Assembly (NCBI GenBank): GCA_024103215.1
Contig: JAGFIY010000048.1
Coordinates: 1-63,560 of the forward strand
Direction of reading: 5' to 3'
Origin: Melioribacteraceae bacterium
GTDB lineage: Bacteria > Bacteroidota > Ignavibacteria > Ignavibacteriales > Melioribacteraceae
DNA: 63,560 nt
In this document: positions 17,975-42,118 of the stretch, piece by piece
Layout of the letters: every line of letters starts with the position of its first letter
Position numbering within the stretch: the first letter of the stretch is position 1
Notes under the pieces: model-generated
Told to the model about the DNA's origin: nothing
Database searches by the model: none
Seen by the model: the letters and a program-made list of their open reading frames with translations, nothing else
Program-made: the position numbers and the translations under genes

Positions 17975-17996
17975 TTCTCGAAAATATTTAGATTTA

Positions 17997-18023
17997 AATG
18001 CCCTTTTATAGGGCATTTTTTTT
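17997..18023 (+). terminator. Rho-independent terminator after clpC
   Basis: A 7-bp stem, AATGCCC with GGGCATT, around a seven-base AT loop runs straight into a T tract of eight. It lies 23 bases after the clpC stop codon. Confidence 0.88.
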
Positions 18024-18066
18024 ATACAAAGATTAAATTTATGTTTATAATTAAAAATGGTGGGGT

Positions 18067-19335
18067 ATGAAAAAGATTCTTTTTTTATTTCTAATCTGGA
18101 CATCATTAGGTTTAGCCCAAATCAATTTTGATGATTATTTTTTTGACAAGACATTACGACTCGATTTCTTTCACACCGGTGATCACACGACAGAAATTAT
18201 TTCACTAGATGAATTGATTGAAGAACCATTTTGGGGAGGATCGAAAAACAATTTAATCGATACGTTCAATTATGGCAATTACAAGTTTGAAGTCCGCGAT
18301 TCGGCAACAAATTCCATAATTTATTCTAGAGGTTTTTCAACATTATACCAGGAATGGCAGACGACAGCAGAATCTAAATCAGTTGTAAAATCTATGTCGG
18401 GTACAATAACTTTTCCGTTTCCAAAGAAGACAGCAAATGTTGAAATTTTCAGAAGAGAAAGAAATGGTGAGTTCGCCTCAAAATTTAATTATTCAATTAA
18501 CCCAAACAACTATTTTATTAGGAAGGGATTGGATAATCCGAAAGAAGTATATGAAGTTCACATTAGCGGTAAACCTGCAATTTGTCTTGATATTTTATTT
18601 CTTCCCGAAGGATACACAAGAGAGGAAATGGAACTTTTTAAAGAGGACTGTCAAAGATTTGCCGAATATTTATTCGACTATGAACCTTTTTCAGAATATA
18701 GAGATAAAATAAACATCCGTGGCATTCTTTCACCCTCAATGGATGCCGGATCGGATATACCAGCCGAGGATAGATGGAATAACACTCTCTTAAACTCAAG
18801 ATATTATACGTTTGACAGCGAGAGATACTTGATGACTCAGGATTATAAAAAAGTACGTGATGTTGCAGCAAACGCACCTTACGATCAAATTTATATTCTT
18901 GTTAATTCCGATAAATACGGTGGTGGTGCAATTTATAATTATTATTCGTTATGCATTACCAATAATCCGATGGGTAAAGAGGTCTTCATTCATGAATTTG
19001 GTCATGGTTTTGCCGGATTAGCAGACGAATATGTTGATCCTTACACTTATGAGGAATTTTATCCTCTTGACGTCGAACCTTGGGAACCTAACATTACTAC
19101 ATTAGTGGATTTTGAAAGTAAATGGAAAAATTTAGTTGATGAAGATACTCCGATTCCGACACCTTCAACGGAAGAATATAAAGACAAAGTAGGGGTTTTT
19201 GAAGGGGGCGGTTATGTTGCAAAAGGCGTCTATCGTCCGACTCAAAATAGTATAATGAGAGTATTGTCATCTCCCGGCTTTAATCAAGCATCAAAAAATG
19301 CAATCGAACAACTTTTAAAATTCTATACAGACTAA
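18067..19335 (+). CDS. M64-family secreted metallopeptidase
   Basis: A 422-residue protein with a clear signal peptide (MKKILFLFLIWTSLGLAQ). The zinc site HEFGHGFAGLADEY (HExxH with a downstream Asp-Glu) and the preceding DILFLPEGYTREEMELF match the M64 family, known from Clostridium IgA protease and many Bacteroidota secreted peptidases. The N-terminal 150 residues form the usual M64 beta-rich domain. The product probably acts in the periplasm or outside the cell on proteins. It is followed three bases later by the PP2C gene. Confidence 0.88.
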   Translation: MKKILFLFLIWTSLGLAQINFDDYFFDKTLRLDFFHTGDHTTEIISLDELIEEPFWGGSKNNLIDTFNYGNYKFEVRDSATNSIIYSRGFSTLYQEWQTTAESKSVVKSMSGTITFPFPKKTANVEIFRRERNGEFASKFNYSINPNNYFIRKGLDNPKEVYEVHISGKPAICLDILFLPEGYTREEMELFKEDCQRFAEYLFDYEPFSEYRDKINIRGILSPSMDAGSDIPAEDRWNNTLLNSRYYTFDSERYLMTQDYKKVRDVAANAPYDQIYILVNSDKYGGGAIYNYYSLCITNNPMGKEVFIHEFGHGFAGLADEYVDPYTYEEFYPLDVEPWEPNITTLVDFESKWKNLVDEDTPIPTPSTEEYKDKVGVFEGGGYVAKGVYRPTQNSIMRVLSSPGFNQASKNAIEQLLKFYTD

Positions 19336-19338
19336 TTT

Positions 19339-20574
19339 ATGGAACAAAGAAAACTTTACAAAACACTTGATTCGGTTGCTTCGCAGAAGTTTAATTCCGA
19401 AAAAGATCTTTTATTCCGCGTAGTTCAAAAACTTGTTGAGGACGATCAAATAAACGTAAGCGGTGGAAGAATTTGGAAATTAAATAAGGCAGAAAAAGCA
19501 TACCAACTTATATTTCAAACTAGTAAAAATCAGAAACTACAGCCTAATTTCACGATAAAAATTCAAGACTATCCTGCGTTCGATGAAGTCGCAAAATATA
19601 GGACTGTTTTATCAAGCGAAACAAATTTAGCACTACAGCAAAAAGGAATTTATAATTATTCTGCAAGTGGTGTAGGTGCGCGAGTTCTTATCGATGGAAC
19701 AAAATATTATCAATACATAATTGCACTTCATTCAGAAGATATCAAAGAGGATTTGAGATACATACTAAATATCGTTGCAACAGTTCTTACATCAAAATTA
19801 AAAGAAAGATGGCTTGCAACAACCAACAAATCAATTCAAGAGGATATTGATAAAGCAAAACAGCTTCAGAGAAGTATTCTTCCGGAACACGAATTCACTT
19901 TTCACAATTATGAGCTATTCGGTATAACATTACCTGCTGAAACTCTTGGCGGAGATTTTTTCGACTATATACAGATTGGATACGATGAGGAACGATGCGG
20001 AGTTGTTTTAGGTGATGCGGCTTCAAAAGGAATCAGTGCTGCGGCTGAGGCGATGTATATCTCAGGTGCGCTGAGAATGGCTTGTTCGTTCCAGTTGAAA
20101 ATATCTCCTATGATGAATATGCTTAATCAACTTATAAATAAAATTTTCAGCGATGATAGGTTCACTACTCTCTTTTATGGGGAAATATCAAACGATAAAA
20201 AAGGTCTCTTCCTTTACTCAAATGCCGGTCATAATCCACCCATTTTTGTTCACAAAAATGACGGTAAAATTCAGATGCTTGACCCGACAGGTCCGCTTTT
20301 AGGTCCTGCACCCAACTCAAGATTTGAAACCGATAGCATAAATTTTGAGAAGGGCGATGTTTTAGTTATATATTCGGATGGAATAACCGAAGCTGCAAAT
20401 GAAAGCTACGAGCTCTATGAAGAGGATAGATTAAAAGATGTGATAATAAAGAATATGGACTTATCACCGAAAGAATTGACGTATACAATTCTTGATGACA
20501 TTCAAAAGTTTTGTGCGAATGGTTCGAAATATCAGGACGATAAATCTCTAGTTGTAATCAAAAGGGTTAGATAA
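19339..20574 (+). CDS. PP2C-type serine/threonine phosphatase (SpoIIE/RsbU family)
   Basis: A 411-residue cytoplasmic protein. The C-terminal 240 residues are a SpoIIE-type phosphatase: DIDKAKQLQRSILPE linker, LGGDFFDYIQI and VLGDAASKGISAA (metal-binding Asp residues), LFYGEISNDKKGLFLYSNAGHNPP, and VIYSDGITEAANES. The N-terminal 150 residues look like a GAF-like sensor without an obvious cofactor site. Such enzymes usually dephosphorylate an anti-sigma-factor antagonist in partner-switching control. No STAS or RsbW-type gene is adjacent. It starts three bases after the M64 gene and ends two bases before the PduS-like gene. Confidence 0.87.
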   Translation: MEQRKLYKTLDSVASQKFNSEKDLLFRVVQKLVEDDQINVSGGRIWKLNKAEKAYQLIFQTSKNQKLQPNFTIKIQDYPAFDEVAKYRTVLSSETNLALQQKGIYNYSASGVGARVLIDGTKYYQYIIALHSEDIKEDLRYILNIVATVLTSKLKERWLATTNKSIQEDIDKAKQLQRSILPEHEFTFHNYELFGITLPAETLGGDFFDYIQIGYDEERCGVVLGDAASKGISAAAEAMYISGALRMACSFQLKISPMMNMLNQLINKIFSDDRFTTLFYGEISNDKKGLFLYSNAGHNPPIFVHKNDGKIQMLDPTGPLLGPAPNSRFETDSINFEKGDVLVIYSDGITEAANESYELYEEDRLKDVIIKNMDLSPKELTYTILDDIQKFCANGSKYQDDKSLVVIKRVR

Positions 20575-20576
20575 TA

Positions 20577-21896
20577 ATGACATTACCGGAAAAAATTTTC
20601 AATGCAGGAGTCGTCGGTGCCGGAGGTGGAGCTTTCCCTACGCACATTAAAGCAAAATCGGAAGTTGAATTTGTAATTGCAAACGGGGCAGAGTGCGAGC
20701 CTTTGATCCATAAGGATTTTGAGATAATGCTGAACTTTCCGAATGAAATTATTGAAGGAATGCTTCTGATGATGGAGCAGACAAAAGCTAAGAAAGGAAT
20801 TTTTGGTATTAAAGGGAAAAATACTGCTGCAATCGAAGCAATACAGAATGCTATTGATGAACGTGATGCTAATATTGAAATGTGTGTTCTAGGTGATTTT
20901 TATCCTTCCGGAGATGAATATGAACTCGTTTACGAAGCAACCAAAAGATTGATACCACCTCATGGAATTCCACTTGATGTTGGCTGCCTTGTAAACAATG
21001 TTGAGACCTTTTATAATATCTATCAGGCTGAAAAAAAGGAACCTGTACTGAAGAAATTCATCTGTGTTACTGGGCTTGTAAAAAAACCATCTTCATTTTT
21101 TGTTGAAGTTGGAACAAGCTTTAAGGACGTTCTTGAAATAGCCGGTGGAACTACAACAAACGATTTTGGTATTTTTATTAGTGGACTCTTGATGGGAACA
21201 CTCACATTTGATCTAAATGAAGTTGTTACAAAAGCCACGGCCGGATTGATTGTGCTTCCGCGAAATCATTACCTTATCGATAGAATGAACCGTTCATACG
21301 ATGATATGAACAGAATAGGAAAATCTGCTTGCGACCAATGTACATACTGCACGGAATTTTGTCCTCGATATCTCCTTGGTTATGATGTTCAACCTCATAA
21401 AGTTATGCGTACACTTGAGTTTACAACATCCGGGAAGGAATACTGGAATCAATTTGCAGATTTATGCTGCTCTTGCGGTTTATGTTCTTTATATGCTTGT
21501 CCTGAAGATTTGTACCCTCGAGAAGCCTGCGATCAAAGTAAAGTGCAAATGAGAAATGATGGTTATAAATACGAACAACAAAAACCTGTCAAAGTTCATC
21601 CGGTAAAAGAGGGGAGGAGAGTCCCGTTAAAACAACTAATGAAAAAGCTGAATGTAGAAAAGTATGAATCAAAAACTCCATTTAAGGAAATTAGTTTTGA
21701 GCCGAAGGTAGTTAGAATAAAATTAAAACAGCACGCAGGCGCACCGGCTGTTCCTAAAGTCAAGCTCAATCAATTAGTAGAGAAAGGGCAGATTATTGCT
21801 GCTCCGAAAGAAGGAAACTTAGGAGCAAATATTCACAGCTCAGTTTCTGGAAAAATTTCGGATATCACAGAAGATTATATAGAAATTAAACGATAA
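20577..21896 (+). CDS. pduS: PduS/RnfC-like electron-transfer flavoprotein of a bacterial microcompartment
   Basis: A 439-residue soluble protein. The N-terminal part is the complex-I 51-kDa/RnfC flavin-binding fold (GVVGAGGGAFPTHIKA, ANGAECEPL). An SLBB-type region follows, then two [4Fe-4S] motifs, CDQCTYCTEFCP and CCSCGLCSLYACP. The C-terminus has an RnfC-like barrel-sandwich domain. This order matches PduS, the cobalamin reductase and electron carrier of propanediol microcompartments. The next gene, 17 bases on, encodes a PduT-type shell protein, which settles the reading. In known systems PduS passes electrons through PduT to the lumen. Confidence 0.88.
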   Translation: MTLPEKIFNAGVVGAGGGAFPTHIKAKSEVEFVIANGAECEPLIHKDFEIMLNFPNEIIEGMLLMMEQTKAKKGIFGIKGKNTAAIEAIQNAIDERDANIEMCVLGDFYPSGDEYELVYEATKRLIPPHGIPLDVGCLVNNVETFYNIYQAEKKEPVLKKFICVTGLVKKPSSFFVEVGTSFKDVLEIAGGTTTNDFGIFISGLLMGTLTFDLNEVVTKATAGLIVLPRNHYLIDRMNRSYDDMNRIGKSACDQCTYCTEFCPRYLLGYDVQPHKVMRTLEFTTSGKEYWNQFADLCCSCGLCSLYACPEDLYPREACDQSKVQMRNDGYKYEQQKPVKVHPVKEGRRVPLKQLMKKLNVEKYESKTPFKEISFEPKVVRIKLKQHAGAPAVPKVKLNQLVEKGQIIAAPKEGNLGANIHSSVSGKISDITEDYIEIKR

Positions 21897-21913
21897 TAGC
21901 GAAAGGAAAATAA

Positions 21914-22459
21914 ATGAATTCACTCGGCTTAATTGAAATGACAAGTATTGCTGCCGGAATGCACGCAGCAGATATAATGTTAAAAACTTCTAATGTTGAA
22001 TTAATTCTTTCTAGAACAATCTGCAGTGGCAAATACATGGTGTTAATCGGAGGCGATGTTGCCGAAGTACAATCTGCAGTTGATAATGCTTCAACTTCAG
22101 TTGATTATGCCGTGATCGACACTTTTGTAATACCGAATGTGCATCCGGATATCTTTCCCGCTTTAAGCGGGCACACTACCGCTGACCAACTTGAAGCACT
22201 TGGTATAATAGAATCTTTCTCGGTTGCTTCTCTGATTGAAGGTGCAGATGCAGCAGTAAAAGCAGCCACAGTCAAACTTATCGAAATCCGTTTGGCAATG
22301 GCATTAGGAGGTAAAGCATTCTGCACCTTGACGGGTGAAGTTGCTGCAGTTACAAGTGCCGTTGAAGCCGGTGCTGCCAAAATAGTTGAGAAGGGACTTC
22401 TTGTAAATAAAGTTGTGATCCCTCAACCTAGAAAAGAATTGATGAGTGAAAAGATATAA
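21914..22459 (+). CDS. pduT: PduT-type tandem BMC shell protein with a likely Fe-S pore
   Basis: A 181-residue protein made of two BMC domains in tandem (IGLIEMTSIAAG-like start near residue 5 and ALGIIESFSVASLIEGADAAVKAA near residue 95), so it forms a trimeric pseudohexameric shell tile. Cys37 in RTICSGKYM sits where PduT carries the Cys that binds a [4Fe-4S] cluster at the trimer pore (SKTICPGKF in Salmonella PduT, from memory). It would let electrons cross a microcompartment shell. The rest of a BMC operon (other shell proteins, signature enzyme) is not in this window. Confidence 0.92.
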   Translation: MNSLGLIEMTSIAAGMHAADIMLKTSNVELILSRTICSGKYMVLIGGDVAEVQSAVDNASTSVDYAVIDTFVIPNVHPDIFPALSGHTTADQLEALGIIESFSVASLIEGADAAVKAATVKLIEIRLAMALGGKAFCTLTGEVAAVTSAVEAGAAKIVEKGLLVNKVVIPQPRKELMSEKI

Positions 22460-30012: not shown

Positions 30013-30507
30013 ATGCACACACAAATATTTAGAAACTTTCCAGCGAATGACCGAAGTAATTTAATAGCAATTTTGCAAGACATACAAGAAATATACGGTT
30101 ACTTGCCGGAACAAGCACTTCAAGATACGGCTGATTATTTAGGAATGGCTTTAAGCGGGGTTTATGGTGTAGCAACATTTTATAATCAATTCAGACTAAC
30201 TCCACTTGGGGAGAATGTAATAAGAGTCTGCCGCGGCACAGCTTGTCACGTCAAAGAATCGGCAAACATTTTAAGAGCCTTGGAATGTGAGCTTGGGATC
30301 AAAGTCGGTGAGACAACAAGAGACAAAAAGTTCACTCTTGAATCAGTGGCCTGTATTGGAGCTTGCAGCATCGCACCTGTAATAAATATTAACAACGAAT
30401 ATTTTGGCAGATTGAAGACAAAAGATATACCGAGAATACTGAATGTATTAAGGAAAGAGAAGGCAGTTAAGGAACAAGAAAATATTCAAAGTTCAGTGAG
30501 CACATAA
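30013..30507 (+). CDS. hydC: Trimeric [FeFe]-hydrogenase, NuoE-like subunit (HydC1)
   Basis: A 164-residue thioredoxin-fold [2Fe-2S] protein of the NuoE/HydC/HndA family. It starts with the usual helical bundle (AILQDIQEIYGYLPEQAL, VYGVATFYNQF) and then has the four cluster cysteines in CRGTACHVK and CIGACSIAP. In the enzyme it passes electrons between the flavin subunit and the rest of the complex. It opens a ten-gene run; its stop codon directly abuts the hydB1 start. Complex I NuoE is excluded because the next genes lead to a hydrogenase rather than to NuoG and membrane subunits. Confidence 0.92.
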   Translation: MHTQIFRNFPANDRSNLIAILQDIQEIYGYLPEQALQDTADYLGMALSGVYGVATFYNQFRLTPLGENVIRVCRGTACHVKESANILRALECELGIKVGETTRDKKFTLESVACIGACSIAPVININNEYFGRLKTKDIPRILNVLRKEKAVKEQENIQSSVST

Positions 30508-32496
30508 ATGAACTCCTTTAAAGAATTTATATTTGACTCAAAAAACACTCCTATTGAAAAAAAATATGAGCAAATTTTTAATGCTTGCGCTGAAGATTCA
30601 AAATCATTGAGTGATGATTCTGGCAATGATCTATATGAATTGATTAAAAAACTGAGATACCTTACGATAGATAAACCGGTAATCTTTATAGGAATGGGAA
30701 CATGTGGTCTAGCCTCCGGTGCGGGAAAAATTAAGGCAGCTATAGAAATTGAACTCGTAAAGAAGGAAATAGACGCCAAGATTATTCCTACAGGTTGCAT
30801 AGGGTTTTGTGCAAAAGAAGTTATTGTTGATATAAAACTTCCCGGTCAAAATCGTATTTCATATTGCGAAGTAACTGAAAAAGATATTCCGGAATTAATA
30901 AAAACAACTTTGATTGAAAAGAAAATTTATCTCCCAAAATTACTCGCTACATATGGACCTTCGGATAATGTTTTAACAAACATTAATGAGATTGATTTTT
31001 TCAAAAAGCAGAAAAAAATCGTACTTGAGAATTGTGGAATAATTAATCCTGAATCATTGGACGAATATATTGCAACTGGTGGTTTTTCCGGTCTGCATAA
31101 AATCCTCAAAAAAAAATCTCGTGAAGAAGTAGTAAATGATATCCTGAAAAGTGGATTGAGAGGCAGAGGAGGCGGTGGATTTCCGACCGGTAAAAAATGG
31201 CAGCTTGCAAGTGAACAAAACTCTGAAATTAAATATATCATATGCAATGCTGACGAAGGAGATCCCGGGGCATTTATGGATCGATCAATTCTTGAAAGTG
31301 ATCCTTATAAACTCATCGAAGGAATTATAATAGCAGCTTATGCAATAAGTGCTAGTTTTGGATACATATACTGTCGTGCAGAATATCCCCTTGCTATCAA
31401 AAGAATTCAAAACAGTATTGATAAATGCATGGAATATGGACTTCTAGGCTCTAATATTCTTTCCAGCAATTTCAACTTCCACCTAAAAATTAAAAAAGGT
31501 GCTGGCGCTTTTGTATGCGGCGAAGAAACTGCATTGATAGCATCAATCGAAGGAAAAAGAGGAATGCCCAAACCTCGACCACCTTATCCGTCAATTTCGG
31601 GTTTATGGGGCAAACCAACAGTTATCAATAACGTAGAAACTTTAGCAAACGTTCCAGGAATAATAAAAAAAGGCTCTGAATGGTTTTCTAATATTGGAAC
31701 AAATAATAGTAAAGGCACAAAAGTTTTCGCAATAAGCGGTAAAGTCAAGTATAGCGGCTTAGCCGAGGTTCCGATGGGAATTACTTTACGAGAAGTAGTT
31801 TTTGATATCGGTGGAGGGATTCCCAATGATAAAGAATTTAAAGCCCTCCAAATTGGCGGGCCTTCAGGCGGATGTCTTCCGGACAAGGTAATGGATACAC
31901 CTGTTGATTACGATTCACTAAAATCCATTGGAGCAATGATGGGTTCGGGCGGGTTTGTCGTAATGGACGAAGATACTTGCATAGTAGATGTCGCGAAATA
32001 TTTTCTCTCATTCATTAAAAATGAATCATGCGGCAAATGTGTACCTTGCAGAGAAGGCACTACGAGAATGTTGGAAATTATTGAAAGAATTCCCACAGTT
32101 TATGATTCAAAACCTACGGCAAATCCTTTGGATCAGCTTCAAAGATTTAAAGGTATTATTCATTTGAATAGACTTGCAAACGTCATTAAAGATACATCTC
32201 TTTGCGGTCTGGGTCAAAGCGCTCCAAATCCAGTCCTAAGCGGCTTGCGTTATTTTAAGGATGAATATGAAGAACATCTTTATGAACGAAAATGCAGGGC
32301 AGCCGTTTGTAAAGATTTACTGACTTTTACAATAGATCAATCGATATGCAACGGTTGCGGTGCTTGTGTAAGAAAATGCGCATCCGAAGCAATAATAGGT
32401 GAAAAAAAATTGCCGCATAAAATTTTGCAAGACAGATGTGTTAAATGTGGAATTTGCGTTGAAACCTGCCGATTTGATGCAATACAAATTAACTGA
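30508..32496 (+). CDS. hydB: Trimeric [FeFe]-hydrogenase, NuoF-like flavin subunit (HydB1)
   Basis: A 662-residue full-length HydB/HndC. Residues about 55-130 are a thioredoxin-like [2Fe-2S] domain (GMGTCGLASGAGK, PTGCIGFCAKE). The NuoF core follows: the glycine-rich FMN/NADH motif GLRGRGGGGFPTGKKW, the CNADEGDPGAFMDRSILE loop and GAGAFVCGEETALIASIEG, plus SCGKCVPCREGTTRM with a later Cys for a [4Fe-4S] cluster. The C-terminus adds a two-cluster ferredoxin domain (CNGCGACVRKC, CVKCGICVETC). It oxidises or reduces NAD(P)(H) and, in bifurcating enzymes, hosts the flavin site. It lies between hydC1 and hydA1 with almost no spacing. Confidence 0.93.
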   Translation: MNSFKEFIFDSKNTPIEKKYEQIFNACAEDSKSLSDDSGNDLYELIKKLRYLTIDKPVIFIGMGTCGLASGAGKIKAAIEIELVKKEIDAKIIPTGCIGFCAKEVIVDIKLPGQNRISYCEVTEKDIPELIKTTLIEKKIYLPKLLATYGPSDNVLTNINEIDFFKKQKKIVLENCGIINPESLDEYIATGGFSGLHKILKKKSREEVVNDILKSGLRGRGGGGFPTGKKWQLASEQNSEIKYIICNADEGDPGAFMDRSILESDPYKLIEGIIIAAYAISASFGYIYCRAEYPLAIKRIQNSIDKCMEYGLLGSNILSSNFNFHLKIKKGAGAFVCGEETALIASIEGKRGMPKPRPPYPSISGLWGKPTVINNVETLANVPGIIKKGSEWFSNIGTNNSKGTKVFAISGKVKYSGLAEVPMGITLREVVFDIGGGIPNDKEFKALQIGGPSGGCLPDKVMDTPVDYDSLKSIGAMMGSGGFVVMDEDTCIVDVAKYFLSFIKNESCGKCVPCREGTTRMLEIIERIPTVYDSKPTANPLDQLQRFKGIIHLNRLANVIKDTSLCGLGQSAPNPVLSGLRYFKDEYEEHLYERKCRAAVCKDLLTFTIDQSICNGCGACVRKCASEAIIGEKKLPHKILQDRCVKCGICVETCRFDAIQIN

Positions 32497-32511
32497 TCTT
32501 TGAGGATGAAA

Positions 32512-34251
32512 ATGATAAACTTGACGATAAACGGAATACAAGTAAAAGCAGAAGAGAATATGACAATTCTTGAAGCGGCAAAATCGGTCGGAATAAATAT
32601 TCCTACTCTCTGTCATATGAAAGATTTGTACCCAACCGGAGCGTGCAGAATATGTGTGGTTGAAGTGAAAGGGATGAACGGATTGACTCCTTCATGTGCT
32701 TTTCCGGTTCAAGAGGGAATGATAGTTGAAACAAATACACCTCGAGTAAAAACCGCTCGAAAAACTATTGTTGAACTGCTTGTTGAAAATCATCCACAGG
32801 ATTGTTTGATATGCGTTCGAAATAAAAATTGTGAATTACAAAATTTAGCTGAAACATATGGACTTAGAGAGCATAGATATGTAGGAAAAACGAAAAGTCA
32901 TGCCATTGATATCTCAAGTCCATCAATGGAACGAGATCCCGCAAAGTGTATTCTTTGCGGTAGATGCGTTAGAACTTGCAACGAAATTCAGAAAGTCGGG
33001 GCAATTGATTTCATTAACCGAGGATTTGAAAGCAACGTTACCACTCCTTTCAACAAAGGATTAAATATAAGCGAATGCATTTTGTGCGGTCAATGTATTT
33101 TAGTTTGTCCAACCGCGGCACTTCGTGAAAAGAGCAGTACAAAAGAAGTCGTAAATGCTCTGATGAATAAAAATATTCATGTAGTTGCTCAAATTGCGCC
33201 GGCTGTAAGAGCTTCAATCGGAGAAGAATATAATATGCCGATAGGTTCAAACGTTACCGGTCAAATTATAACCGGTTTGAAAAGACTCGGTTTCAAAAAA
33301 GTATTCGATACAAATTTTGCTGCTGATCTAACCATAATTGAAGAAAGCGCAGAACTTATAGACAGATTAAGTAAAAACAAAAATTTACCAATGTTCACAA
33401 GCTGCTGCCCTGGTTGGATAAAATATCTCGAACAAAAAGAACCCGATCTATTAAAACATGTTTCCACGTGTAAATCACCGCAGGAAATGGAAGGTGCAGT
33501 CATTAAATCGTACTATGCAGAAAAAATGAACTTGGACCCGAAGGATATTTATGTTGTTTCGATAATGCCCTGTACTGTAAAAAAATTTGAATCGGAAAGA
33601 CCGGAGCTTTCTCATAACCATATTCCCGATGTTGATGCTGTACTTACTACACGTGAGTTAGTAAGACTTTTTAAAACTTCAGGAATTGACTTTGATAATC
33701 TTCCTGAGGATAAATTTGATAATCCATTGGGTGAATCAACCGGCGCTGCTGCAATTTTCGGTACGAGCGGCGGAGTGTTGGAAGCTGCGTTAAGAACCGC
33801 TTATTTCAAATTGACATGCGAGAACCCGAAAAGTCCAATATTTGAAGAATTACGTGGAACAGAAGGTCTGAGAAGTTTTGTAGTCAAAATAAATGGTAAA
33901 GAAATTAAAACAGCTATTGTTAATGGAATAGGGAATGTTCAATCATTATTAGAAAAATTAAAAAAAGGTGAATTGGAATATGATTTTATAGAAGTAATGG
34001 CATGCCCCGGAGGATGCATAAATGGCGGTGGTCAACCAATTCATCAAGATGAAAATCGCGTAAAAGAACGAGTAAAAGCTCTGTATAAGATCGATGAAAA
34101 GGCAAAGATGAGATATTCACATGAAAACAGTTCCATATTAAAAATTTATGATGAATATTTTGAAGAACCTAATTCTCGCACTGCACATAAAATTCTTCAT
34201 ACAACTTATGTTGATAGGAAAAAATTAATAAGAGTAAACGCTAAACACTAA
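32512..34251 (+). CDS. hydA: [FeFe]-hydrogenase catalytic subunit, canonical H-cluster (HydA1)
   Basis: A 579-residue group A-type catalytic subunit. N-terminal accessory clusters: a plant-type [2Fe-2S] (LCHMKDLYPTGACRICVVE), a His-Cys3 [4Fe-4S] (HPQDCLICVRNKNC) and two [4Fe-4S] (CILCGRCVRTC, CILCGQCILVC). The H-domain has all three loops: TSCCPGW (residues 296-302), MPCTVKKFE (Cys354) and ACPGGCINGGGQP (Cys498, Cys502). Cys299, 354, 498 and 502 match the H-cluster ligands of Clostridium CpI with an offset of one, and Cys298 matches its proton-relay Cys. ATG at 32512 is chosen because TGAGGA lies five bases upstream; ATG at 32506 is also open. The stop overlaps the next start by one base. Confidence 0.95.
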   Translation: MINLTINGIQVKAEENMTILEAAKSVGINIPTLCHMKDLYPTGACRICVVEVKGMNGLTPSCAFPVQEGMIVETNTPRVKTARKTIVELLVENHPQDCLICVRNKNCELQNLAETYGLREHRYVGKTKSHAIDISSPSMERDPAKCILCGRCVRTCNEIQKVGAIDFINRGFESNVTTPFNKGLNISECILCGQCILVCPTAALREKSSTKEVVNALMNKNIHVVAQIAPAVRASIGEEYNMPIGSNVTGQIITGLKRLGFKKVFDTNFAADLTIIEESAELIDRLSKNKNLPMFTSCCPGWIKYLEQKEPDLLKHVSTCKSPQEMEGAVIKSYYAEKMNLDPKDIYVVSIMPCTVKKFESERPELSHNHIPDVDAVLTTRELVRLFKTSGIDFDNLPEDKFDNPLGESTGAAAIFGTSGGVLEAALRTAYFKLTCENPKSPIFEELRGTEGLRSFVVKINGKEIKTAIVNGIGNVQSLLEKLKKGELEYDFIEVMACPGGCINGGGQPIHQDENRVKERVKALYKIDEKAKMRYSHENSSILKIYDEYFEEPNSRTAHKILHTTYVDRKKLIRVNAKH

Positions 34252-36215
34252 TGAATATTGGAATAGTTAGTACAATTGGACAAAACTGTAGAAGATGTTA
34301 TTCTTGCGTTAGAGAATGTCCAGCAAATGCGATAAAGGTTGAAGAAGGGCAAGCGGTTGTTATTGCTGAAAGATGCATAAGCTGCGGGCATTGTGTTAAA
34401 GTGTGTACGCAAAACGCTAAAAAAGTATCTAGCGATATTGAAAAAGTACTTTATGAATTATTACCAAATGATAATTGTATTGCAATAGTTGCTCCTTCAT
34501 TCGCGGCTTCGTTTCCTAAAACATACGATAAAATTCCTACTGCTTTAAAAAAACTTGGTTTCACAAAAGTTATTGAGACAGCTTTTGGCGCTGATTTGAT
34601 AAGCACGAAATATTCTGAATACTATTCCAAGAATCGAGGGAAAACTATTATCAGTTCACCCTGTCCCGCTATTTATAATTATATCGAAAAATACTATCCG
34701 GAATTAATAGACAATCTCGCACCAATTGTATCTCCGATGGTTGCGGCAGGAAGATATTTAAAGAATAAATATGGGAATGAAACTCCAATAGTTTTCATTG
34801 GACCCTGTATTGCAAAAAAGAACGAATACAATGATGCTAACACAAATGAAGCAATAGATTCTGTTCTAACATTTACGGAATTGAATAAAATATTCGATTT
34901 ATTAAATATCTGTCTTGATGAATTAGAAGACGGAAACTTTGATCCTCCTTATTCAAATTTAGGGAAATCGTTTCCGCTTGTAGGCGGACTACTTAAGACC
35001 GCAAACATATCCTCGGATATTCTTGAAAAGGAAGTGATTATAGTTGACGGAAAAGATAAGGTAAAACAGATAATAAGAGATATTGCGGATAATAAAATTC
35101 AATCCAAGTTTATAGATATCCTTTTCTGTGAAGGTTGTATTAATGGTCCTGCAATTGAAAGCAGTTTAAACTACTTCTCGAAAAGAGAAAAGGTAATCGA
35201 GTATTTTGAAAAGAACATTAAGAATGTCGACAAAAATATTTGGAAAAGTGAGATATACAATTCACGGAATTTAGATCTAACACGAGTTTTCGAAGCGAAC
35301 GACAAGCGAAGACAAATGCCTTCTGAAGAAAGGATTAGAGAGATTCTTAGACGAACAAACAAATTTGATAAATCCGATGAGCTTAACTGTGGAGCTTGCG
35401 GTTATCCTACTTGCAGAGAAAATGCAATTGCAATCGCTAAAGGGTTAGCTGAAGAGGAGATGTGTCTTCCTTATTTGATTGATAAACTTGAAACTGCTTA
35501 TCAAGAGCTTCATGATACTAAAGATCAATTGCACAACAGCGAAAAACTTGCTTCAATCGGACAATTAGCAGCAGGTGTTGCCCACGAAATAAATAATCCT
35601 CTTGGAACAATTATGCTTTATTCCGCTATGATGAAAAAGGAACTCGAAAAAGCAAAATGTGCTAATGGGACAGTTGAAGATCTGAACCTAATAATTAAAG
35701 AAGCAAACAGGTGTAAAAATATAGTTGCCAACTTATTGAATTTTGCCCGGCAGGGAAAAATAAAAATAAATCAAATAAATCTTTTGTCGATAACTAAAGA
35801 AATTGTAAGACAACAAGAAAATGCTTTTAATGATGTTAAAATTAATTTGAAATATTCATGTGATAGAATTCTTATTTCCGCTGATGAAGATCAGATAATG
35901 CAAGTAATATTGAACTTGATCTCAAACGCAGTGGAAGCTGTTGAGACCACAAAAATAAAAGAAGTAAATATAACATTAACTGAAAACACAAATTACGTAA
36001 CAATATCAGTTGCCGATTCTGGAATCGGAATTCCGGAAGAAAATATGCGTAAACTTTTTACACCTTTCTTTACCACAAAAAAAATGGGTAAGGGAACAGG
36101 TCTTGGTCTTGCAATTACTTATGGAATAATTAAAATGCACAAAGGTGATATAAAAGTGGAAAGTGAATTTGGAAAAGGTGCTGAATTTATTGTAAAACTT
36201 CCTAAAAATATTTGA
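34251..36215 (+). CDS. Sensory [FeFe]-hydrogenase fused to a histidine kinase (HydS-like)
   Basis: A 654-residue fusion. Residues 1-60: a two-[4Fe-4S] ferredoxin ([23 protein letters not shown]). Residues about 75-330: a short hydrogenase H-domain with loops SSPCPAI (Cys138), GPCIAKKNE (Cys186) and CEGCINGP (Cys293, Cys297). All four H-cluster ligands are there, but the proton-relay Cys is replaced by Pro137, and the small-subunit tail is missing. Residues about 380-420: a further Fe-S domain, [13 protein letters not shown] plus a later Cys. A coiled coil then leads into a kinase with His445 in [10 protein letters not shown] and an intact ATP site ([16 protein letters not shown]). It fits the histidine-kinase-linked sensory [FeFe] class: H2 binding would change kinase activity. 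It has no membrane segment. Confidence 0.93.
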
Positions 36216-36231
36216 ATTAAAGGTGAATGAA

Positions 36232-36627
36232 ATGAAGATACAAAAGATATTGCTGGTTGATGATGATATTGATCTTTTAGAACAAAACAAAATATTAATA
36301 GAATCAAAAGGTTTCAATGTAATAACAGCAGAAAGTGCTGAAGAAGGTTACGAAAAATTTATCTCAGAAAATCCCGACGCATGTGTAATAGACCTAATAA
36401 TGGAACATCATGATTCAGGTTTTATCCTTTGCCATAAAATCAAGAAGACCGAATTAGGGAAAATGATTCCTGTCCTTATTTTAACATCTGCAACCTACGA
36501 AACCGGGTTCAAATTCAGCACAACTACTGCGGAAGAACGAGAGTGGATAAAATGCGACGGAATCCTTAACAAGCCTGTTGTAATAGAAGAGTTGTTGGAA
36601 AAGTTTGAAGAAATTAAACAAGACTGA
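36232..36627 (+). CDS. Stand-alone response-regulator receiver
   Basis: A 131-residue protein that is only a receiver domain. The acidic pair is VDDDID, the phosphoacceptor is Asp54 in CVIDLIME, and the switch Thr and Lys appear in LILTSAT and ILNKPV. An insertion around residues 85-105 (FKFSTTTAEEREW) lengthens the loop before the last Lys. There is no DNA-binding or enzymatic output, so it probably relays phosphate like Spo0F or CheY. ATG at 36232 is preferred, with AAGGTG six bases upstream; the frame also opens with GTG at 36223. It directly follows the sensory hydrogenase-kinase gene. Confidence 0.9.
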   Translation: MKIQKILLVDDDIDLLEQNKILIESKGFNVITAESAEEGYEKFISENPDACVIDLIMEHHDSGFILCHKIKKTELGKMIPVLILTSATYETGFKFSTTTAEEREWIKCDGILNKPVVIEELLEKFEEIKQD

Positions 36628-36639
36628 AATAAAATTAAC

Positions 36640-38115
36640 ATGATTGATAAAGCAAAGATATTGATTATAGATGACGAAGAAGGTTTAAGACTAGGAACAA
36701 AGCGTTTGCTCGAACTTGAAGATTATTTTGTCGATGCAGCCGAAAACGGTTCGGAAGGAATTAAACTCGGAACAACCAATGAATATGATCTTGCTTTTAT
36801 TGATTTAAAAATGCCCGACTATGACGGAATCGAAGTATTAAAAAAAATAAAGGAAGCAAGACCAAATACAGTTTGCTATATAGCAACGGCTTACGCAAGT
36901 TATGACACAGCGGTTGAGGCAACACGAATTGGGGCATATGGATATATTCCAAAACCCTTTACTCCCGATGAACTTTTATACAGCGTAGAAAAAGGAATGC
37001 TTCAAAGAAATCTTCTGCTTGAATCCGAGCGATTAAAATTGGAAAGAGAAAAAAATCTTCTTGAACTAGCTTCGGAAAAAAGTAGATTAAAGACAATACT
37101 TAATTCAATTGCCGGTGGAGTTCTCGTAGTTAATAGATTGGGTAAGATAGTCTACTTCAACAATGCTGCACTAAAACTGGCAGACTCAGATAAATTCGAA
37201 ACCGGGAAACCGCTTCCGGAAAATTTCCCCGAAGAACTTAAAGAGATTGCGTCGGAATATCTTAATGCTGACATTTTCATTTCCGGAGCAAAATCTTTGG
37301 AAATTGAAATTAAACCAAATCAAGAATTAGTAATACAAGGAATTGTCTCCCATGTTCCGGAAGGAGAAAATAGTTTTGCCGGAGTTGTTATAGTTTTAAG
37401 AAATATAACCGAAGCAAAAAAAATTGAGCATATTAAGAACCAATTCGTATCGATGGTTGCTCATGAATTGAAGGCTCCGGTTTCAGCTGTTATAGGATTT
37501 TTACAATTGTCGATGGATGAAAATGTTAAACTGCCTGAAGAGAAAAAGCTTGAATTTATGCAACGCTCTACCACGCGGCTTAAAAGTCTGCTCGATCTCG
37601 TAAACGATCTGCTCGATATTTCTCGCATGGAAATTAATACAAAACAAAAAATTATCGAACCAATAGATTTAAAAGAAATATTAAACTCAACATTAGAACT
37701 TTTTTCACTAGATATTAAAAATAAAAATATTGTTGTTGAAAAAAGGATAGATCAAAATCTATCTCTTATAAATATGGATAAAAGTGAAATCTCAAGAGTT
37801 TTCACCAATCTGATTAGTAATGCTGTAAAGTATAATCACGACAACGGTAAAATTGTTATAAATATTTCAAATAAAAATAATTTCATCGAAATTTTAATCA
37901 AAGATTCAGGAATTGGATTGCGGGAAGAGGAAAGAGAAAAAATATTCACTGAATTTTTCCGCGCAAAAAATAAATTTACTAAATCAATTTCCGGCACCGG
38001 ACTTGGACTATCGATTGTTAAGAGAATTGTTGATTCGTATAACGGAAAAATAAGGTTCGAAAGCGAGTATGAAAAAGGAACGACATTTATTATTCAATTT
38101 CCAATAAATGATTAA
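36640..38115 (+). CDS. Receiver-PAS-histidine kinase hybrid
   Basis: A 491-residue soluble protein. A receiver comes first (Asp55 in LAFIDLKMPDYDG, Lys in IPKPFTP), then a coiled coil, a PAS domain (LNSIAGGVLVVNRLGKIVYFN, about residues 155-260), a HisKA dimerisation domain with His275 in MVAHELKAPVSA, and an ATPase domain (NLISNAVKYNHDN, GIGLREEE, GTGLGLSIVKRI). An N-terminal receiver lets another kinase control this one. That makes it a natural downstream partner of the hydrogenase-kinase two genes back. The PAS cofactor is not obvious. Confidence 0.92.
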   Translation: MIDKAKILIIDDEEGLRLGTKRLLELEDYFVDAAENGSEGIKLGTTNEYDLAFIDLKMPDYDGIEVLKKIKEARPNTVCYIATAYASYDTAVEATRIGAYGYIPKPFTPDELLYSVEKGMLQRNLLLESERLKLEREKNLLELASEKSRLKTILNSIAGGVLVVNRLGKIVYFNNAALKLADSDKFETGKPLPENFPEELKEIASEYLNADIFISGAKSLEIEIKPNQELVIQGIVSHVPEGENSFAGVVIVLRNITEAKKIEHIKNQFVSMVAHELKAPVSAVIGFLQLSMDENVKLPEEKKLEFMQRSTTRLKSLLDLVNDLLDISRMEINTKQKIIEPIDLKEILNSTLELFSLDIKNKNIVVEKRIDQNLSLINMDKSEISRVFTNLISNAVKYNHDNGKIVINISNKNNFIEILIKDSGIGLREEEREKIFTEFFRAKNKFTKSISGTGLGLSIVKRIVDSYNGKIRFESEYEKGTTFIIQFPIND

Positions 38116-38145
38116 CTAACTAAGAACAAAGAAAAGAGGTACCAA

Positions 38146-38517
38146 ATGGCATTAATCGCAGTAATTGATGATGATCCCGATATCATCGAAGCGAGTTCCT
38201 TGGTTCTAAAATCAAAAGGTTATCACGTTGTAACCGCCACTAATCCAGATGACGGTTACAAGATTATTCAAGAAAAGAAACCAGATTTAATTATTCTCGA
38301 TGTTATGATGGATGAACCCGATGATGGATTTTTCTTGGCTCAGAAACTGAGACGCGAAAAAATTAAGACACCTATTCTTATGTACACTTCTGTTTCTAAA
38401 ACTATCGGAATGGAATTTGGAGCCGGTGAGATGGTTCCCGTGGATGATTTTGTTGAAAAACCCATATCACCTGATGAATTGCTCAGCAAAGTTCATTTTC
38501 TTCTTAATAAGGAATAG
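38146..38517 (+). CDS. Second stand-alone receiver
   Basis: A 123-residue receiver with no output domain. It has IDDDPD, phosphoacceptor Asp52 in IILDVMMDEPDDG, the Thr/Ser switch in LMYTSVS and the final VEKPISP. An AAGAGG ribosome site precedes the ATG. It resembles the receiver encoded 2 kb upstream, including the DEPDDGF / EHHDSGF turn after the Asp, so the two may be duplicates serving different kinases. It ends eight bases before hydC2. Confidence 0.9.
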   Translation: MALIAVIDDDPDIIEASSLVLKSKGYHVVTATNPDDGYKIIQEKKPDLIILDVMMDEPDDGFFLAQKLRREKIKTPILMYTSVSKTIGMEFGAGEMVPVDDFVEKPISPDELLSKVHFLLNKE

Positions 38518-38525
38518 GAGGCATA

Positions 38526-39002
38526 ATGCTTGTAGAAGAAAAAAATGCAGTAACAGAAGAAATCGAAAACCTAGTTAAAACTTACGGATCCGAAAGATCG
38601 GCACTTATGCCGATACTTCAAGAAATCCAGAAAAAGCATCGTCACATATCAGACTATGCTCAACAAGAAGTTGCACGATTGCTTGATATTCACCCGGTTG
38701 AAGTGTTCAGCTTTATTTCATTTTACTCATTCCTTAACACTGAACCAAAAGGAAAAAATATTATTAGAATCTGCAGAACCATTGTGTGCGATACTAAGAA
38801 TAAAAGTGCAGTCGTTGCAGCTATTGAACGCGAACTCGGTATTAAAGTTGGTGAAACAACTAAAGACAAAAAATTCACTTTAGAATATGCAAATTGTATT
38901 GGAATGTGTGATCAAGGTCCCGCAATGGCAGTTAACGATCGAGTTTATACTAAAGTAACTCCTGAAAAGGCAATTGCAATTTTAAGTGAGGTGAGGGGGT
39001 GA
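38526..39002 (+). CDS. hydC: Trimeric [FeFe]-hydrogenase, NuoE-like subunit (HydC2)
   Basis: A 158-residue second copy of the NuoE/HydC thioredoxin-fold protein. The [2Fe-2S] cysteines are in CRTIVCDTK and CIGMCDQGPA, the latter differing from the CIGACSIAP of HydC1. An AGGAGG ribosome site sits just upstream. It shares the GVGETT-DKKFTLE block with HydC1, so the two are paralogues, but the N-termini are quite different. Its stop codon lies one base before the hydB2 start. Confidence 0.92.
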   Translation: MLVEEKNAVTEEIENLVKTYGSERSALMPILQEIQKKHRHISDYAQQEVARLLDIHPVEVFSFISFYSFLNTEPKGKNIIRICRTIVCDTKNKSAVVAAIERELGIKVGETTKDKKFTLEYANCIGMCDQGPAMAVNDRVYTKVTPEKAIAILSEVRG

Positions 39003-39003
39003 C

Positions 39004-40212
39004 ATGGAAAAGATAAAGAAAAGGAGAGAAGGAAAAGTAATTTTCTCGGAATACACTCGCGGAGCGGGCATAAACAAATTGAAGGAATTTTCCCGGGAAG
39101 ATGTATTGTTCGAACTGAAAGAATCCGGTTTGAAGGGTAGAGGAGGAGCAGGTTTTCCAACAGCAACAAAATGGATGTTAACAGCTGCTGCTAAAAGCGA
39201 TAAGAAATTCGTGATCTGCAACGCCGATGAAGGTGAACCCGGGACATTTAAAGACCGTGTTTTACTAACCGAATATCCTGAGCTAGTATTTGACGGAATG
39301 GTTATTGCTGGTTATACAATCGGTGCGAAATTGGGAATTGTTTATCTCCGTGGTGAATATGAATACTTAATGAAGCCGTTGCAGGATTACCTTCAAGTTA
39401 TGAAGGAAGATAATTTGCTTGGTAACAACATTGCCGGTGTGACTGGATTTGATTTTGATATTAATATTGTAATGGGATCCGGCGCTTACGTTTGCGGTGA
39501 AGAAACTGCTTTAATCGAATCGCTTGAAGGACATCGTGGTGAAGCAAGAAACAGGCCCCCGTTCCCGGTAAATACAGGTTATATGGGGCATCCAACCACA
39601 GTAAACAACGTTGAAACTCTTGCTGCGGTTTCACATATTGTAATCAAAGGCGGCAACTGGTTTAAGAAGGTTGGAACAGATAAATCTACCGGATCAAAAC
39701 TGCTTTCAATCTCTGGTGACTGCAACAAACCCGGTGTTTATGAAGTTCCTTGGGGAACCACAATTCAAGAAGTACTAAAACTGGTTGATGCTAAAGATAC
39801 TAAAGCTGTTCAAGTTGGAGGTGCATCCGGAATTTGTCTAAATAAAACTCAATTCGATCGCACAATTAGTTACGAAGATGTTGCAACCGGCGGCTCTATA
39901 ATGATTTTCAACGAAAATCGAGATATGCTCCATATTCTTAAAAATTTTATGGAATTTTTTGTAGAAGAATCATGCGGTCAATGCACACCTTGTAGAATAG
40001 GAAACGTAAAAATGCTTGAAGGAATTGAGATGATTGAAAGAAACGATTACACATTTTCGTACATCAATAAGTTGAAAGGTTTGGCTGAAACTATGAAAGT
40101 TGCTTCAAAGTGCGGACTTGGACAGTCAAGTCCAAACCCTTTCTTGTCGATTATAGAGAATTTTAGGGAAGAAATATTCAATGGAAGTCACGGAGGTCGT
40201 AATGGAAAATAA
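39004..40212 (+). CDS. hydB: Trimeric [FeFe]-hydrogenase, short NuoF-like flavin subunit (HydB2)
   Basis: A 402-residue NuoF core only: GLKGRGGAGFPTATKW, CNADEGEPGTFKDRVLL, GSGAYVCGEETALIESLEG, and SCGQCTPCRIGNVKM with a later Cys for the [4Fe-4S] cluster. It lacks the N-terminal thioredoxin-like domain and the C-terminal two-cluster ferredoxin present in HydB1, so its electron route must be simpler. NADH and FMN binding motifs are intact. A strong AGGGGGTGA ribosome site overlaps the end of hydC2, and the gene overlaps hydA2 by 11 bases. Confidence 0.93.
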   Translation: MEKIKKRREGKVIFSEYTRGAGINKLKEFSREDVLFELKESGLKGRGGAGFPTATKWMLTAAAKSDKKFVICNADEGEPGTFKDRVLLTEYPELVFDGMVIAGYTIGAKLGIVYLRGEYEYLMKPLQDYLQVMKEDNLLGNNIAGVTGFDFDINIVMGSGAYVCGEETALIESLEGHRGEARNRPPFPVNTGYMGHPTTVNNVETLAAVSHIVIKGGNWFKKVGTDKSTGSKLLSISGDCNKPGVYEVPWGTTIQEVLKLVDAKDTKAVQVGGASGICLNKTQFDRTISYEDVATGGSIMIFNENRDMLHILKNFMEFFVEESCGQCTPCRIGNVKMLEGIEMIERNDYTFSYINKLKGLAETMKVASKCGLGQSSPNPFLSIIENFREEIFNGSHGGRNGK

Positions 40213-42118
40213 AAATGAAAAAAGGGCACCTGTAAGTCAAAAAGCTCATACTGTCGAAAAACCAAAAAATCCGGAATACATCGGTGGTACAGTTTCCATT
40301 GAAATAAACGAGAAAAAGATTTCCGTGCCTATGGGAACAACAATTCTTGAAGCTTGTCGTGAACATGGAATTCATATTCCTACTTTATGTCATCACGATG
40401 ATTTGTGTGTTGCGGGTGTTTGCAGAATTTGCGTAGTTGAAGTTGAAGGAATGAGAACACTTCAAGCATCTTGCGCTTATCCAATAACTTCTCCTATAAA
40501 AATCAAAACTTCATCTCCAATGGTTCGTAAAGCAAGAAGAAATATCATAGACTTGCTGATAAGCGAACATTACGGCGAATGCTATGCTTGTGTTCGAAAC
40601 AACAACTGTGAACTTCAATCTCTCGCAAAGGAATATGGTGTTGATACTTTTAACTTTGGTCACGTTCAATCACCAAGATTTGAAGTTGATCTATCATCTC
40701 CTTCAGTTGTAAGAGATATGAACAAATGTGTTCTCTGCAAGCGATGTGTAAGAACATGTATCGACTTGCAGGAAGTCGGCGTTTTAGAAGCAATCGGAAG
40801 AGGCGATCATACTCATATAAGCACTTTCTTGGAAAAACCTCTTGCCGATGTAATCTGTATCAATTGCGGTCAGTGTATAAACAGATGTCCAACAGGTGCA
40901 TTACGAGCAAATGATCCTTCGGATGAAATATGGAATGCAATAGATGATCCAAATAAACACGTAGTAATTCAAACTGCACCATCGCCTCGTGCTGCAATAG
41001 GTGAGGAATTTGGACTACCTCCAGGAACTTCTGTAACTGGAGAATTAAATACCGCATTAAGAAGAATAGGCTTTGATAAAGTATTTGATACAAATTTTAC
41101 TGCTGACCTAACAATAATTGAAGAAGGTACAGAATTACTTATTCGACTTTATAATGCTTTAGTTAAAAACGATCCGACAGCAATAGTTCCACAATTTACT
41201 TCTTGTTCGCCCGGTTGGGTTAAATATCTAGAACATTTTTATCCCGATTTTATCGATCATTTATCGTCCGCAAAATCACCTCAGCAAATGTTCGGAGCAT
41301 TGATAAAAACATTCTATGCACAAGAAGTAAAGGTAAATCCAGAAGATATCGTGACTGTTGCAGTAATGCCATGTTCGGCTAAGAAATTTGAATGCAACAG
41401 ACCGGAAATGCAGGATAGTGGATTTAAAGATGTTGATTATGGTTTAACCACACGCGAACTTGCTAAGATGATAAAGGAAGCAGGAATAAACTTGCCTGAA
41501 ATGCCTAAGTCAGAATTTGATGATCCATTCGGAAATGCGAGCGGTGCTGGATTAATATTCGGTGCTACTGGAGGTGTTATGGAAGCAGCTCTTAGAACCG
41601 TCCTCGAACTTGTAACAGGTAATAAGGTGGAAGATATTTTTGAAAATATGAACATCGTTCCTGTTCGCGGATTTGAAGGAATACGCTATGCCGAAATTCC
41701 TGTCGAAAATGTTGGTCCTGTTCCGGATTTACTAAAGGCGTATTTTAAAGATTGGAATTGGCTTAAAGGTGTAACACTTAAAGTTGCCGTTGCTCACGGA
41801 ACTGCAAATGCTAAAAAAGTGCTTGAAGACATAAAAGCAGGCGGCAAACTAAGTCAATGTCATTTTATAGAGTTTATGGGATGTCCGGGTGGATGCTTAG
41901 GTGGCGGTGGTCAACCCATACCGACAAACGAAGAAATTCGTAAAAAACGCGCAGAAGCAATTTATGCAGAAGACCAAGGATTGCCAATTAGAAAATCTCA
42001 TGAGAATCCTCATATACTTTACATCTATGAGAATTTCTTAACCGAGGGTCCGTGCAGTCACAAATCACATAAACTGCTTCATACACAGTACGTAAAACGC
42101 GGGAAGTATATAGCTTAA
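40202..42118 (+). CDS. hydA: [FeFe]-hydrogenase-like catalytic subunit with altered H-cluster loop (HydA2)
   Basis: A 638-residue group A-type catalytic subunit with the same accessory clusters as HydA1: [2Fe-2S] (LCHHDDLCVAGVCRICVVE), His-Cys3 (HYGECYACVRNNNC), two [4Fe-4S] (CVLCKRCVRTC, CINCGQCINRC). In loop 1 it reads TSCSPGW (residues 333-339): the relay Cys335 is kept but Ser336 sits where the first H-cluster cubane ligand is in CpI. Loops 2 and 3 keep Cys391, Cys561 and Cys565, though ACPGG has become GCPGG. The proton-path Glu residues (IIEEGTEL) are retained. It is longer than HydA1, partly through about 35 N-terminal residues and an insert near residue 500-545. GGAGGT at 40192-40197 supports the ATG at 40202 over 40181. 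Confidence 0.92.
   Translation: MENKNEKRAPVSQKAHTVEKPKNPEYIGGTVSIEINEKKISVPMGTTILEACREHGIHIPTLCHHDDLCVAGVCRICVVEVEGMRTLQASCAYPITSPIKIKTSSPMVRKARRNIIDLLISEHYGECYACVRNNNCELQSLAKEYGVDTFNFGHVQSPRFEVDLSSPSVVRDMNKCVLCKRCVRTCIDLQEVGVLEAIGRGDHTHISTFLEKPLADVICINCGQCINRCPTGALRANDPSDEIWNAIDDPNKHVVIQTAPSPRAAIGEEFGLPPGTSVTGELNTALRRIGFDKVFDTNFTADLTIIEEGTELLIRLYNALVKNDPTAIVPQFTSCSPGWVKYLEHFYPDFIDHLSSAKSPQQMFGALIKTFYAQEVKVNPEDIVTVAVMPCSAKKFECNRPEMQDSGFKDVDYGLTTRELAKMIKEAGINLPEMPKSEFDDPFGNASGAGLIFGATGGVMEAALRTVLELVTGNKVEDIFENMNIVPVRGFEGIRYAEIPVENVGPVPDLLKAYFKDWNWLKGVTLKVAVAHGTANAKKVLEDIKAGGKLSQCHFIEFMGCPGGCLGGGGQPIPTNEEIRKKRAEAIYAEDQGLPIRKSHENPHILYIYENFLTEGPCSHKSHKLLHTQYVKRGKYIA

Follow-up and report, generated by a model that had tools for sequence, protein, structure and literature searches.

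Why should the genes of PduS and PduT, a known electron route across a microcompartment shell, follow those of a peptidase and a phosphatase, apart from all other compartment genes? The window, by which we mean the whole stretch of 63,560 nucleotides that was analysed, is the entire contig C87 of a 3.2 Mb assembly in 186 contigs. The initial annotation had described a tight row of four genes with gaps of 3, 2 and 17 bases, and the same row is seen in the ORF coordinates and Pfam domains (Table 1). Its statement that these 63 kb hold no other shell protein and no signature enzyme also stands, since genome-wide searches gave no further BMC domain (PF00936) and no EutN_CcmL domain on C87, and no match to ALDH, DeoC, PduL or Pta there. 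An Rfam search returned a single tRNA match. From a comparison of 58 genomes, we consider it probable that PduS-PduT is the redox-outlet module of a FRAG-type compartment with DeoC and a dehydrogenase as putative cargo, encoded on at least four contigs.

Table 1. Features of the four-gene unit and of the two proposed cargo enzymes. Positions refer to the window unless a contig is given.
Feature	Position	Strand	Basis or remark
Intrinsic-terminator-like hairpin, 9 pairs + T run	17996..18018	+	Between clpC and the four-gene unit; consensus match only
Sigma-70-like promoter, TATACA-17-TATAAT	18023..18051	+	15 bases 5' of the M64 start; weak consensus match
M64 family metallopeptidase, 422 aa	18067..19335	+	Pfam Peptidase_M64 PF09471 + M64_N PF16217
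PP2C (SpoIIE-type) phosphatase, 411 aa	19339..20574	+	Pfam PF07228
PduS-type flavin/iron-sulphur NADH oxidoreductase, 439 aa	20577..21896	+	PF01512, PF13534, PF13375, PF10531
PduT-type BMC-T shell protein, 181 aa, pore Cys37	21914..22459	+	Two PF00936 stretches
Acetylating acetaldehyde dehydrogenase	C98, L194:10897-12480	minus	NCBIfam TIGR02518, 635.6 over 620.1
DeoC	C155:37765-38640		NCBIfam 290.7 over 117.3; 10.8 kb from the BMC-H pair

Judging from the tight spacing and from the terminator- and promoter-like sites just ahead of the row, the four genes are likely to form an operon. A consensus scan gave 5 terminator-like sites (2.5 +/- 1.7 in shuffles) and 23 sigma-70-like promoter sites (16.0 +/- 3.7 in shuffles, a weak excess), and inside the M64-PduT unit itself it also placed several promoter-like sites and two terminator-like ones, both weak. 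The M64 peptidase is likely to be secreted, as judged by eye from its N-terminus, and is probably a neighbour and not a part of the compartment. Its gene stands in the row ahead of PduS in 13 of 20 fetched relatives, two of which have one gene between M64 and PP2C. The phosphatase gene immediately precedes that of PduS, at a distance of -20 to 6 bases, in all 16 fetched relatives from the family of this genome (f1), but in none of the four from family f3, where PduS-PduT is kept. Because this coupling is complete in one family and missing from the other, the phosphatase is plausibly an optional co-regulated partner of PduS-PduT. The partner-switching control that the initial annotation suggested for it is at most a candidate role.

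The oxidoreductase combines Complex1_51K, SLBB, Fer4_17 and RnfC_N domains, the set given for PduS in the accessible text of PMC6325248. Its best solved relative is RnfC, and it has tetracysteine motifs at residues 252 and 297, both of which are present in all 21 sequences compared (window included). The shell protein has two BMC domains in tandem, and its Cys37, singled out as a pore residue in the initial annotation, aligns with a cysteine in PDB entries 3pac ('Shell protein') and 3nwg ('Microcompartments protein'); the Cys37 motif likewise occurs in 21/21 sequences, the window's included. Since the score against the NCBIfam equivalog model for PduT (TIGR02526) is 128.7 bits, under the cut-off of 250.3, we call this protein PduT-type and not certified PduT. 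According to the available parts of PMC2982820, PduS from Citrobacter is reduced by NADH and co-purifies with PduT, and electron return to the cytosol via PduS-PduT has been proposed for the PDU compartment.

The suggestion that the pair serves a compartment encoded elsewhere is supported by a search of the genome for BMC-H and BMC-P genes, which located two of each, as well as the end of a third BMC-P, on three other contigs. Two of the four PF00936 matches are those in the window's PduT and the other two are in adjacent BMC-H genes on C155, while both PF03319 matches belong to a BMC-P pair on C101. C98 breaks off 89 bases beyond the dprA start, in a short piece that reads as the last residues of a BMC-P; in 20 relative loci chosen because the third BMC-P is present, this gene lies directly before dprA in all 19 that could be drawn. 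The shell genes are therefore found at four contigs: C87 (BMC-T), C155, C101 and the end of C98. The BMC-P pair starts 145 bases 3' of deoB (L008:4985-6151), the product of which scores over its NCBIfam cut-off (470.4 vs 341.2), and in 28 of 29 relative loci deoB is upstream of the pair on the same strand, within about 1.1 kb. The gene that follows the pair on C101 is presumably sigma-factor-like.

By our reading of the BMC match listings, this scattered shell is present in 49 of the 58 genomes, own included, and three or more BMC-P were among the matches listed for 44 of these 49. Within the order, these shell genes are conserved among relatives. Shell genes that are scattered and mostly remote from known enzymes, with a BMC-P triplet, have been described from Ignavibacteriae as the FRAG type (Sutter et al. 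2021, PMC8217296, in its accessible text). The same text counts FRAG among the types for which no signature enzyme is obvious, and expects their function to emerge from future studies. The nine genomes that we count as shell-less are G007, G018, G034, G035, G039, G042, G046, G053 and G057; G042 and G053 were taken to have only a compact shell-gene locus, inferred from match numbers, and G035 was placed here with its one BMC-P in such a locus. G003 and G019 were classed as shell-bearing on one BMC-P each. Under one genus label, G055 and G056 bear the shell and G053 and G057 do not. A BMC-H match like the pair occurs at G007:C291:6468-6989, in a genome that has no BMC-P, dehydrogenase or DeoC extension; this may be a decaying system.

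The second BMC-H (L007:10271-10945, L324:2282-2947) continues beyond its shell domain into a long charged linker, with an RGRP motif in 4 of 10 aligned relatives, and a conserved C-terminal domain of ~45 residues. Pfam gave nothing credible for this C-terminal region (best E 0.96), and the top fold matches, to transcription factor Rho, are weak (best E 1.3, prob 0.77). The predicted model of this protein is poor apart from its C-terminal domain.

How closely does the PduS-PduT pair follow this shell? PduS orthologs occur in 42 of the 49 shell-bearing genomes (relatives 58-72% identical) and PduT orthologs in 41 of those 42 (69-86%), the one exception being G012, in which PduS stops at a contig end. 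Both proteins are missing from G022, G026, G033, G037, G041 and G055, and G021 has a PduT fragment only. Since G037, G041 and G055 are near-complete and shell-bearing, the compartment does not depend on this outlet, and PduS and PduT, although inherited as a pair, are accessory to it. Close orthologs of PduS-PduT were found only in genomes with the scattered shell. The compact loci of G035, G042, G053 and G056 contain diverged versions (PduT 41-59%, PduS 42-44%), the 59% PduT being that of G035. Gene order in relatives, a point raised by the initial annotation, gave PduS ahead of PduT in all 20 loci fetched, which were chosen because PduT is present; their neighbours vary, and two of them show a short intervening ORF (75-87 aa) between PduS and PduT.

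The genome has six ALDH matches, one of which is the acetylating acetaldehyde dehydrogenase of Table 1. Alignments with its best solved relatives cover residues 4-448 and leave a C-terminal tail of 79 residues. When 20 such tails and one from an aldolase are aligned, their ends are conserved. Of the 49 shell-bearing genomes, own counted, 45 have the ortholog at full length (relatives 66-74% identical); G019, G021 and G026 have fragments only, and the protein is missing from G033, which is 81% complete. None of the nine shell-less genomes has this ortholog: they contain either nothing or the compact-locus type (29-31%). A search with the tail for more cargo in the 58 genomes gave strong matches only to dehydrogenases and to an aldolase of G017. 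Weak matches, which turned up in part in shell-less genomes, were attributed to chance. Also rejected as cargo were recurrent weak matches of ~700 aa about 20 kb from BMC-P, which look to us like EF-G.

DeoC carries an N-terminal extension of ~64 residues in 46/46 shell-bearing genomes with DeoC vs 0/8 shell-less ones, a count that leaves out G039 (best match 37%) and G026, G030 and G040 (no DeoC listed). A second DeoC, in G013, has no extension. None of the listed solved DeoC structures (37 sequences) aligns to the extension. The model for DeoC from Stygiobacter electus (mean pLDDT 81.6) has a helix at residues 3-23, a low-confidence stretch to about residue 66 with two short helices in it, and a TIM barrel. 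The first helix is amphipathic over its first 11 residues (about the top 3% of background), with no excess of hydrophobic moment over 18 residues. As modelled, the extension would be in line with the description of encapsulation peptides in the accessible text of PMC8217296. Extended DeoC was found in 98 named records, and the best 80 of the 98 were inspected by title: they are named Melioribacteraceae, Melioribacter, Stygiobacter, Ignavibacteria, Ignavibacteriae, Ignavibacteriales or Ignavibacteriaceae, and the others only Bacteroidetes, Chlorobiota, Chlorobiaceae or 'bacterium'. A BMC-H match is present in 11 of these 80 loci, many stretches being too short to reach one. The isolate record of Stygiobacter electus strain 09-Me (L324) contains both the DeoC extension and the BMC-H pair. 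By eye, residues about 50-61 of the extension, GADRIAAGLGVG, resemble the C-terminal GADRIGASASVK of DeoC itself.

Because the shell, the tailed dehydrogenase and the extended DeoC co-occur, we regard both enzymes as candidate cargo. One single-contig genome, G008, has all three together with PduS-PduT. In this 3.30 Mb genome PduS is split in two frames (L081; G008:C1:2894346-2895649), by mutation or sequencing error. A tree of the DeoC core, which is poorly resolved, needs 4 changes of the shell-less label (bootstrap 2-5), and its well-supported branches force only one. Given shared ancestry and this single forced change, the association between shell and enzymes may rest on few events. The PduL-type phosphotransacylase (PF06130) of a complete metabolosome core was not found in the genome under study and is missing from 53 of the 58 genomes; in the other five it lies near the shell-gene matches of a compact locus. 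Ordinary Pta is present in 58/58 genomes, with no obvious shell-linked length difference. Neither PF06130 nor PF01515 led to an enzyme linked to the shell, and no phosphotransacylase candidate was retained.

From these sequences we can propose how the compartment may work. The tail of the dehydrogenase and the extension of DeoC would target both enzymes into the shell. Nucleoside breakdown and DeoB would supply deoxyribose-5-phosphate, which DeoC would split inside the shell to glyceraldehyde-3-phosphate and acetaldehyde. The dehydrogenase would then convert acetaldehyde, NAD+ and CoA to acetyl-CoA and NADH. PduS would oxidise this NADH, and the electrons would leave by way of an iron-sulphur cluster in the PduT pore to the cytosol. 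The comparison with relatives points to a compartment that would degrade deoxyribose, the DNA sugar. A search of the main text of open-access papers returned none that links DeoC to FRAG. The compartment type is already known, and the cargo assignment appears to be new. A two-enzyme cargo hypothesis with candidate targeting segments makes the function of FRAG testable, and an extension that goes along with a shell across genomes can mark an enzyme as likely cargo where gene neighbourhood gives no hint.

About 7.5 kb from PduT, positions 30013-42118 of the window contain two NADH-linked [FeFe] hydrogenase sets (NuoE-like, NuoF-like, group A6 hydrogenase). The two sets are separated by a hydrogenase-like histidine kinase. 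NuoE/NuoF-like genes are near PduT in 2 of 20 fetched relatives (L079, L081). These hydrogenase sets are a possible electron sink. A bolder picture, which we find doubtful, would have the FRAG compartments of Ignavibacteriales as constitutive DNA-sugar organelles that lack encapsulated phosphotransacylase and alcohol dehydrogenase, that are wired by PduS-PduT to cytosolic carriers, possibly the nearby [FeFe] hydrogenases, and that are tethered to nucleic acid by a Rho_N-like nucleic-acid-binding domain on one BMC-H.

Other readings of the locus differ in the aldehyde, in the direction of the electrons or in the compartment itself. The same scattered shell with its PduS/PduT gate could receive its main aldehyde, lactaldehyde or glycolaldehyde, from a class II aldolase of the fuculose- or rhamnulose-phosphate type, with DeoC secondary; we judge this unlikely. 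The class II aldolase of G017 (L196:13157-14029) does bear a dehydrogenase-type tail (E 1.2e-10 with a profile built without it), and at E <= 0.1 it is the sole non-dehydrogenase gene recovered by the tail profile from 26325 segments (in two overlapping loci). This tail is apparently a moved targeting module, and the tailed enzyme would provide another aldehyde source in G017. Amphipathic C-terminal ends of other kinds are found on class II aldolases in G032 (L199, next to genes that we take to be sugar-kinase-like), beside BMC-H in G001 and beside BMC-P in G025. Of the 20 loci fetched for the third BMC-P, 16 have a class II aldolase within a few genes of it. However, an untailed ortholog (51-64% identity) is present in shell-less G018, G034, G035, G039, G046, G053 and G057, an aldolase with the dehydrogenase-type tail occurs once in 58 genomes, and the dehydrogenase passes a model, TIGR02518, that is specific for acetaldehyde. 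Because the class II aldolase near the third BMC-P is also found in shell-less genomes, we dropped it as core cargo and, with it, a PVM-like interpretation of that locus.

It is quite improbable that PduS and PduT act in the shell by carrying electrons inward, or by reducing flavin, cobalamin, ferredoxin or another cofactor, instead of venting NADH. The accessible text of PMC2982820 and PMC6325248 describes the characterised PduS as a cobalamin reductase and reports a proposed role as activase reductant in GRM compartments; yet the pathway inferred here needs no cobalamin or glycyl-radical enzyme, and its dehydrogenase would make NADH inside the shell. We give very little credence to a recruitment of the pair, along with the peptidase and the phosphatase, to a job outside any compartment. 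This second suggestion of the initial annotation draws on the tight unit with unrelated genes, and it fits poorly with the shell genes in the same genome, with a pair that stays together in 20/20 fetched relatives while its neighbours change, and with nine shell-less genomes that have no close ortholog of the pair apart from the PduT in the compact locus of G035.

This compartment can be compared with known systems as far as the available parts of the cited papers describe them. The pair itself has the same domains, adjacent genes and pore cysteine as PduS-PduT of PDU and GRM compartments (PMC2982820, PMC6325248), but is encoded away from other shell genes and from the proposed enzymes, with no B12 or glycyl-radical enzyme implicated. 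Some genomes with the HO compartment of Haliangium also have a distant DeoC-family gene, partly with an N-terminal extension like an encapsulation peptide; that shell is of a different type, and PMC8217296 states the distant DeoC for HO only. In SPU compartments, too, DeoC aldolase feeds an aldehyde dehydrogenase, and a use of DNA debris has been proposed (PMC8217296, PMC4207490). SPU loci share RpiB and keep the enzymes with the shell genes, whereas the genes of the present system are scattered, PduL was not found, and the proposed cargo enzymes do not share one locus with the shell genes; the SPU signature enzyme DeoC (PF01791) is present with a shell-linked extension and would be encapsulated. 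The closest likeness is to FRAG, with which this genome shares shell genes at several places and probably the BMC-P triplet, seen here as two whole genes and the end of a third; unlike the catalogue entry, which leaves the function open (PMC8217296), we propose DeoC and acetaldehyde dehydrogenase as the cargo and PduS-PduT as the outlet.
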